Of a stretch of 35,229 nucleotides of DNA, positions 17,979-34,295 are shown piece by piece. The notes beneath the pieces are model-generated. The model saw only the letters and a list, made by a program, of their open reading frames with translations. It was not told the DNA's origin and made no database searches. How positions within the stretch are numbered: position 1 is the stretch's first letter; the number at the start of each line of letters is the position of its first letter. The position numbers were made by a program, and so were the translations under genes. Origin of the DNA: Planctomycetaceae bacterium (lineage in GTDB: Bacteria; Planctomycetota; Planctomycetia; Planctomycetales; Planctomycetaceae). The stretch is taken from NCBI GenBank assembly GCA_029243145.1, contig JAQWSQ010000105.1, positions 1-35,229 on the forward strand, written 5' to 3'.

Positions 17979-18938
17979 TCAAGCTGCAGCAGGATGCTTG
18001 GGCATCGAGATGGGGGTGGAAGTTGACTTGGCCATCTCGCGAAGATATTTCAGTCGGCCCGCTCGAATCGAAGTTTCCCATGTTTCACTATAATAAGAAA
18101 AGAACCAGGGTGTCGAACGCGGGCTGATCATCAGCACCGCATACAACCAGCGAAGTCGGCGTTGATGTCTTTGAATGGTGCGGGAGATCTCTTCTGGTTT
18201 GTCTCGATACCATTGCCACTCTTCACAAAGAAAATCCGGGTCGTCAGGCGGGAAATGATGGTTACTGTGACACTCATGGAAGCCATAAACTGTCAGTTCA
18301 GAGATCAGTGTTTTGAGGCATGTTTGATTATAATGGGCGACGAACGATTCGTCGGCATATCCAAATGCTTTTCCCTCACTTTGTAATCTTTGTCCCATCA
18401 TTAATTCACTGAAATGCCCATACATGGTCGGAAACCCGCCAACCTAATCCCAAGTGGTACGATCAATCAAAAACTCGCGTACAGAGATTTTTGATCGTGC
18501 GCTTTCTTTCCATCGTACAACATCGATATCAAACAGCCGCTGCTCCATCTCGCCAAACCGGTTTGCATTACCATTGTTACTGTTGCTGTTGATGCACTGG
18601 ACGCCTTGAGTTTTGGTCGCCTGAATTGCCGCCTCCACGCACTCCGGTTCGGCGAAGCAGTGACATTCTGTGAGATAGGGGTATTGCCCATGCGAGTTGG
18701 CGATAGCCGCATTATACATTTCATGATCTTGGTAATTATCACAAAACACGATGCGCACATCAGGATAGGCTGTTGTGATCTCATCAAGTTCTGGAGCCGT
18801 TTCCAAACACGCAACAATGATCTCATACGACTCATTCTCAAGTGTTTGATCACGAAACGATTTAATGCTTTTCATGTACTGATCGCGATGGTCGATCAGT
18901 GGAATAATAACAGAGGCGAGGAGTTTATGTTCAGTCAT
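17979..18938 (-). pseudogene. Family 2 glycosyltransferase interrupted by an in-frame TAG
   Basis: The frame from ATG 18938 to the stop at 17979 encodes 319 codons, with one internal TAG at 18446-18444 (codon 165). Upstream it reads SVIIPLIDHRDQYMKSIKSF, YEIIVAC and TECHCFAEP, the GT2 nucleotide-sugar fold with an E-x-H-type variant of the DxD site. Just before the stop is FLIDRTTWD and just after it VGGFPTMYGHFSELMMGQRL, together the usual GT2 acceptor-side block (W-D-x-VGGF). The downstream half continues with GYADESFVAHYNQT and LTVYGFHEC, as expected for the same protein. Only the single TAG breaks it; a one-base change would give Gln, Lys or Glu. It may be a recent pseudogene, a sequencing error or a readthrough gene. 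An ATG at 18425 could allow reinitiation of the C-terminal part. The frame extends to 19043. Confidence 0.8.
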
Positions 18939-32844: not shown

Positions 32845-33338
32845 GGCGGGATCCGTGGAGAGATCAAATGGTGGGTCAATAACTGTTAGGGCTGTTAAGG
32901 TGGGATGATCGGGGCGGGCCCTACATATCAATCGCCATTGATAATACCAGAACTGTAATAGCGGTGTCAAAAAGAGTTTTGGGAGGTTTTGAGACTCATG
33001 GATCGCTTTCTTGGGGCAGCATTTTGCAGGAAATCCCTACAATACATTTGTGGAAGCGATGTTTGAGACGCGCGCAATATTGCCTGATCAAAAGGATCCC
33101 GATTAGGCAGTTCTCAAAATCGCGGCCTAGTTCGCGGAAGTTTGTAATTCTTGAAGTATTTCCAAACGCCTATCGCCATTGATGTTCGCTCGCATTGATC
33201 GTGACAGAATCGGGCAGGTCTTATCAAATCGGCATAAGAACTGCATTGTTGGTTTAGTTGTCTAGTCAGACATGTGTGTGCTCTCCACACAGAATTTCTA
33301 TTTTGAATTCTCAACTCATTCTTCAGGAAGAGGACACT
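32845..33338. other. Gene-free gap before the DUF1559 gene
   Basis: About 490 bases. Short frames occur on both strands (for example plus 32964-33182) but none has a start context or recognisable product. No tRNA fold, repeat or strong terminator was seen. It presumably contains divergent promoters for the DUF1501 and DUF1559 genes. Confidence 0.5.
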
Positions 33339-33341
33339 ATT
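33325..33341 (+). promoter_or_regulatory. Strong Shine-Dalgarno placed before an ATT codon
   Basis: AGGAAGAGGA (33325-33334), then four bases, then ATT (33339-33341), in frame with the DUF1559 protein. The spacing would be ideal for a start at this codon, which would encode a [12 protein letters not shown]-terminus. The nearest ordinary start is GTG at 33357, 22 bases after the purine tract. Confidence 0.55.
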
Positions 33342-34295
33342 TCACAGTCTCATCTTGTGCGCAGACAACGCGGATTTACTCTCATCGAATTACTGGTGGT
33401 CTTCGCGATTATCGCGGTGCTCGTCGCTCTGTTATTACCAGCCGTCCAACAAGCACGCGAAGCGGCTCGTCGGTCCAGTTGCAAGAATAACTTGAAGCAA
33501 CTCGGGCTGGCGATCCATAACTATCACGACACGCATTCCGTATTTCCTCCTGGAACAATCAACGCCGGAGAAAGTGGTTGCGACAGCGTTGGATTCACAC
33601 CGGGCGAATTGCGGAACCATACCGCTTATATGTTTCTGTTACCATTTTTGGATCAGTCTCCCTTGTATAATCAGATTGATTTCAGCCTGCCAACCGGTAA
33701 TTCTTATTTTGGGGCGTGTACTCCTCTCAGCTCATTCACGGAGCAAGTTGACGCCAACGGAGAACCGATTCTGGATCAGTTCATTTCCGTGTTTGTCTGC
33801 CCCTCGGACGATGGTCTAGACTATCGTCATTCACCGGGAACTGTTTACTCTTATCACCATGCCCGCCGAACATCATAGGGTCTCACTCAATGGACGACCG
33901 AGTACACTCTGGCAACCAGTTATAGAAACGATGGTAGCAGGAGCCGGACTCCTTGGGGCTTGAACGGTTCTGCCAAGTTCAGAGATTTTCAGGACGGCAC
34001 CAGCACCACAATTGCCTTGCTCGAAACTCCTATGGAAAAAACGTCCGCGAGTTACGGTCCTTTCTGGACAGATTTCTCACATACGTTCTGGATTGTTCCA
34101 ACTTATGGAATCAACAAGCCTTATACGGCCACCGACAAACGCCAATATGCCTGGCGAGCCGGAAGCTCTCACACAGGCGGAGCACAAGCGCTGCTCGGCG
34201 ATGGTGCAGTTCGATTCCTCAGCGAAAATATCGATCAGACCACTCTCAACAGCATTACTTCGACAAGAGGTGGTGAGGTCATCGGAGAGTTTTAA
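33339..34295 (+). pseudogene. DUF1559 pseudopilin-like protein with in-frame TAG
   Basis: One frame covers 318 codons with a single internal TAG at 33876-33878 (codon 180 counted from the ATT). The N-terminus [20 protein letters not shown] followed by [20 protein letters not shown] is the type IV pilin-like prepilin signal and helix of DUF1559 proteins. It continues [25 protein letters not shown] and VFVCPSDDG. After the TAG the frame goes on [54 protein letters not shown] and FLSENID, the standard DUF1559 C-terminus. Both halves are well preserved; only the stop interrupts them. No normal start fits the Shine-Dalgarno. It could be a recent pseudogene, a sequence error or a readthrough gene. 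DUF1559 proteins are abundant in planctomycetes and probably form pseudopilus-like or surface structures. Confidence 0.85.

Follow-up and report, generated by a model that had tools for sequence, protein, structure and literature searches.

A single in-frame TAG interrupts a family-2 glycosyltransferase-like gene in a planctomycete assembly with ordinary decoding machinery

What does a single in-frame TAG mean in a bacterial gene that is otherwise open from its start to its terminal stop? The question was raised by a family-2 glycosyltransferase (GT2)-like gene in the window, as we call the whole stretch of 35,229 nucleotides of a Planctomycetaceae bacterium that was analysed, and the original prediction gave three options: recent nonsense mutation, sequence error or amber readthrough. 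Re-reading the frame on the minus strand, from 18938 to 17979, gave the same counts as before, with 164 open codons, the TAG and then 154 open codons (Table 1); the start ATG lies at 18938-18936, the terminal TGA at 17981-17979, and the block around the TAG reads TTWD*VGGFPTMYG. From base composition alone, the chance probability of such open runs is approximately 5e-4 for the 164 codons and 8e-4 for the 154, but homology argues more decisively for one interrupted gene, because both halves align to intact homologues. The locus is single-copy in the environmental source assembly (5,225,740 bases in 232 contigs, completeness 97.61%) and its neighbours are ordinary: a TctA-type transporter and an FHA-domain kinase on one side, and a DUF2617 gene and an O6-methylguanine methyltransferase-like gene on the other.

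Table 1. Features of the interrupted glycosyltransferase-like locus, in window coordinates.
Feature	Position	Strand	Observation
Family-2 glycosyltransferase-like gene with one in-frame TAG	17979..18938	-	Same frame open on both sides; 79% identity to the intact G002 gene; N-terminal half matches PF00535
In-frame TAG, codon 165	18444..18446	-	Codon of congener G002 is GAA (Glu)
Upstream half, 164 codons	18447..18938	-	29/53 family invariant columns
Downstream half, 154 codons and TGA stop	17979..18443	-	24/53 family invariant columns
ATG, codon 172, seven codons past the TAG	18423..18425	-	Glu in 10/10 aligned relatives; possible restart site, most likely chance

The only close relative found was the congener G002, with a contig of which the window is collinear over about 21.5 kb. 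Its gene is intact, so that the TAG is premature by comparison with an intact orthologue, as in a pseudogene or nonsense allele, and its codon at this position differs from TAG by two bases. The protein alignment to G002 runs without a gap through the site, its sole gap lying near the C-terminus; this upholds the earlier statement that there is no indel and that nothing is missing at the TAG, and it rules out a frameshift or lost sequence there. Matches to the GT2 gene were found in six of 59 relatives (the source genome included) and in 32 of the 397 genomes of the class, and by this distribution the gene is dispensable at the scale of the class. Among the 33 matches listed from the 397 class genomes, the TAG occurs in one, the source gene itself, and there is just one further internal stop, a TGA in a weak match (E 7.9e-4). 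None of 24 aligned homologues carries a stop in the matched stretch and all have a sense codon at the site, where the residue varies among E, R, Q, K, D, A and S. The situation in which relatives all end the protein at this point, named beforehand as one that would count against an interrupted gene, therefore does not apply (0 of the 24), nor did we find, in the 33 listed matches or the 24 aligned homologues, a stop at the same place in several species, as would be seen for a conserved programmed readthrough.

The stretch matched in the 24 homologues spans the site and is free of stops, which gives no support to two separate genes with the second starting past the TAG. The downstream half is not a separate conserved gene, because its ATG stands where all ten aligned relatives have Glu. 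The same ATG would be the starting point of a natural split gene, in which translation terminates at the TAG and restarts seven codons on, and the two chains assemble; the ATG is specific to this lineage, and a GGCGGG sequence ends nine bases upstream of it. However, GGCGGG belongs to coding sequence that the intact congener shares almost unchanged, chance alone can create a new ATG, the arrangement would be confined to one genome, and no split is seen among the 24 aligned homologues. We consider a split gene very improbable.

The assignment to the GT2 family is supported by the N-terminal half, which scores 23.8 bits against the PF00535 profile (cut-off 23.3), and by a profile of ten relatives, which matches solved GT2 enzymes such as chondroitin synthase (2z86/2z87) in its N-terminal part only. 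The family resemblance is nevertheless marginal, in that the whole read-through protein scores 22.2 bits, just under the cut-off; a second PF00535 search gave the locus 23.7 bits, over the cut-off. There are 18 PF00535 matches in the genome, that is, 17 besides the interrupted gene. Matches of the protein to NCBIfam models were far under their cut-offs, and a single-sequence AlphaFold model of the congener's protein had a mean pLDDT of 40.7 and was set aside. GT2 enzymes usually carry a DxD-type metal-binding motif; in the sequence alignment of the group, an invariant E91-x-H93 lies near the place expected for it. The alignment of ten relatives, which leaves out the window's own protein, has 53 invariant columns, distributed over both halves as given in Table 1, and because 24 of them lie past the TAG, a product of 164 residues should be inactive.

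Comparison of the source gene with that of the congener by the NG86 method gave dN/dS values of 0.12/0.68 before the TAG and 0.13/1.40 after it. These pairwise values integrate over all the time since the two species separated and are therefore silent on the period after a recent stop; low values on both sides of the TAG would be expected just as much if the gene were functional and its assembled sequence had one erroneous base. Among the sites that nine distant relatives conserve, ten are changed only in the source gene and five only in the congener (one-sided p 0.15), and at invariant sites the corresponding numbers are five and two (one-sided p 0.23); neither excess is significant. Two of the changes at invariant sites, G155E and E172M, are no more than ten codons away from the TAG and each differ by two bases from the congener; two-base changes are seldom expected from single random read errors. 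Taken together, the changed conserved residues hint at a relaxed constraint, which would slightly favour a real mutation over a read error. Divergence from the congener, in blocks of 150 bases, is approximately 20-27% in the GT2 gene and its flank, compared with approximately 5-20% in most neighbouring stretches, with exceptions both ways. The start of the gene (18742-18938, minus strand) has a low synonymous divergence from the congener over codons 1-80: codons for unchanged residues differ in nine of 71 cases there (none of 15 in codons 61-80), compared with 61 of 167 afterwards, and this stretch is possibly a recombination tract.

Could the TAG be read as sense? The decoding machinery of the genome is ordinary. 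Release factor RF1 is present (prfA, 468.7 bits; cut-off 423.25), and the best match to PylS reached 24.6 bits against a cut-off of 178.15. No TAG-reading tRNA, with a CTA anticodon, was found among 44 Rfam tRNA matches checked with ARAGORN, in a survey that scored 150 of 184 first-look candidates in an incomplete assembly and that could miss a poor tRNA. The terminal stops of 334 sampled genes with an orthologue are TAG in 53, TAA in 115 and TGA in 166, and the genome has thus neither lost RF1 nor ceased to use TAG at the ends of its genes. Reassignment of the codon is ruled out by RF1, the tRNA set, PylS, the terminal use of TAG and the mixed types of lesion described below, and there is no evidence for TAG as a sense codon here. 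As an observation on the tRNA genes themselves, four tRNA-like genes (Tyr, Lys, Leu, Glu) stand in a row at L091 12704-13104 (G000:C86); two of them score lowest among the genome's Rfam tRNA matches, while the other genes of the contig look ordinary.

A part-time decoding of the TAG, by chance leak or by regulation, would still supply some full-length enzyme, and it would accord with an intact frame, with the low dN/dS past the TAG, with the variability of residue 165, at which many inserted residues could be tolerated, and with the argument, made in PMC7918605, that readthrough is frequent in bacteria. The features of the decoding machinery just given stand against it, as do the finding of the stop in one genome only among the matches listed, the role of TAG as an ordinary terminator, and the occurrence of TAA, TGA and indels among the other lesions of the assembly, which are in no way specific to amber. 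We regard functional readthrough of the GT2 gene as unlikely. Of the three options of the original prediction, then, recent nonsense mutation and sequence error are retained, with an otherwise intact frame and low dN/dS in both halves, and amber readthrough is left unsupported.

The window holds a second interrupted gene, of the DUF1559 family (PF07596), at 33258-34295 on the plus strand, with one TAG at 33876-33878, before and after which the frame is the same and open. Across the assembly, a single in-frame stop is found in five of 46 DUF1559 matches (three TAA and two TAG), the frames being otherwise open, and a sixth, weak match carries ten stops. DUF1559 genes with a single stop lie on G000 contigs C96, C117, C161, C220 and C221, and one of the stops falls inside a 16-letter protein block. 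Among the matches listed for other genomes, stops occur in at least two of 53 DUF1559 genes of the sister genome (TGA and TAG), in none of 67 in G001 and in at least one of 54 in G345 (TAG); the difference between five of 46 and the two of 53 listed for the sister gives a p value of 0.25. Internal stops were absent from the matched part of the 41 sulfatase matches listed for the source genome (of 107; counted by eye) and from that of its 18 listed GT2 matches.

We also compared orthologous pairs from about 756 kb of the source assembly with those from 777 kb of the sister. Before curation, an event was recorded in 11 of 311 pairs in the source and in eight of 320 in the sister. Curation by eye removed from the source four events near the predicted start (codons 46, 46, 72 and 79) and one in a frame of 157 amino acids at 68% identity, and from the sister another six close to a predicted start (codons 47-87) and one that proved to be a piece of the broken glmS itself. 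Candidate lesions were left out of the count where the frame was short or doubtful (L106, L107 and L102). This gave six broken orthologues out of 311 in the source, one of them ambiguous, compared with one out of 320 in the sister (p 0.065), the latter being a TAG 30 codons before the end of its gene. The six are the GT2 gene, two neighbouring genes of contig C180, glmS, the C221 DUF1559 gene and the ambiguous C168 gene, in which an event was flagged at codon 58 in one scan and a TGA at codon 287 in others. Lesions are thus somewhat more frequent here than in the sister, and neither comparison is significant.

In the interrupted glmS (L114 5861-7718, G000:C144), codon 112 is a TAG and a 2-base deletion lies near codon 405. 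No other glmS match in this genome exceeds the curated cut-off, so that this copy is the only full-length one. It is changed at two residues that are invariant in the sequences of 19 relatives, compared with none in the sister. The PQQ-like propeller gene on C180 (L105 6631-10204, G000:C180) has two TGA codons at positions that are TGG in the sister, and a TAA close to its start, and the gene adjoining it has a 1-base deletion. Its other changes by comparison with the sister are six against four at conserved sites and two against none at invariant sites. Pooling the GT2, glmS and C180 genes gave 19 changes at conserved sites against nine (one-sided p 0.04), for genes that were chosen because they carry lesions.

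Lesions of this kind bear most directly on the reading in which the contig simply carries a wrong base, through low coverage or strain mixture, and the organism itself has an intact gene. Isolated lesions of mixed type in other genes of the assembly, its only full-length glmS included, could reflect such a consensus problem, and the numbers of broken pairs and interrupted DUF1559 genes point the same way. The excess over the sister is, however, not significant in either comparison, and the listed sulfatase and GT2 matches are free of internal stops. Nor is the broken glmS decisive, because G005, a nearly complete relative in a single contig, has partial glmS matches only and no full-length one, so that loss of glmS may be tolerated in the family and the gene may be truly dispensable. 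Random errors should, moreover, add many changes, and the C180 gene has little excess; the indels in glmS and in the C180 genes lie outside homopolymer runs. A consensus error is a possible explanation that we hold to be somewhat less probable than not, and it and a nonsense allele are the two close remaining readings.

Our slight preference is for a real and recent nonsense allele of an accessory GT2 gene, which we think a little more probable than not: few genomes of the class have the gene, its divergence exceeds that of most neighbouring stretches, and two-base changes have hit conserved residues close to the TAG. According to this proposal, the single-copy accessory gene would have gained the TAG at codon 165 on this organism's own branch. 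Its translation would then end after 164 residues, keeping the sugar-nucleotide-binding half and losing the second, and the gene would most likely be a recently inactivated allele or young pseudogene in which the remaining frame has not yet decayed. The loss of function, its recency and the presence of the base in the cell are all three inferred. A broader proposal, that general translational readthrough lets the lineage tolerate isolated nonsense codons of all three types, so that the GT2, glmS and C180 propeller genes and several DUF1559 genes would still give some full-length protein, seems to us improbable, as does its narrower variant, a GT2 enzyme split with a restart at the new ATG.

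The locus matters mainly as a caution, in that recoding is weakly supported by a clean in-frame stop in an assembled genome, and several such stops occur in this one. If the stops are real, the lineage could be used as a natural system for asking whether isolated nonsense codons undergo readthrough or just do not persist for long. Our search of a library of open-access papers turned up none that treats this gene, TAG recoding in planctomycetes or a glycosyltransferase nonsense mutation in Planctomycetes. The closest parallels come from work on other genes. Isolated in-frame stops in conserved bacterial genes are described by Belinky et al. (2021; PMC7918605) as widespread and mostly short-lived, and the GT2 gene shares with the cases treated there a single TAG, an otherwise intact frame, a dN/dS well below 1 and an apparently young age; the focus of that study is on stops common to at least two species, whereas the GT2 stop is in a single assembly and is known from assembled sequence alone. 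In the Codetta screen (PMC8629427), a passage on yeast genomes, rather than on bacteria such as the planctomycete assembled here, puts apparent stop reassignments without a suppressor tRNA in some yeasts down to pseudogenes, and names transitions from TGG as a common and likely source of such stops; in-frame stops without a suppressor tRNA are found here also, and the two TGA codons of the C180 gene correspond to TGG in the sister. By comparison with these systems, the TAG in the GT2 gene looks like an ordinary instance of an isolated in-frame stop, in a broken or mis-assembled copy of the gene, and not like a new reading of the code.
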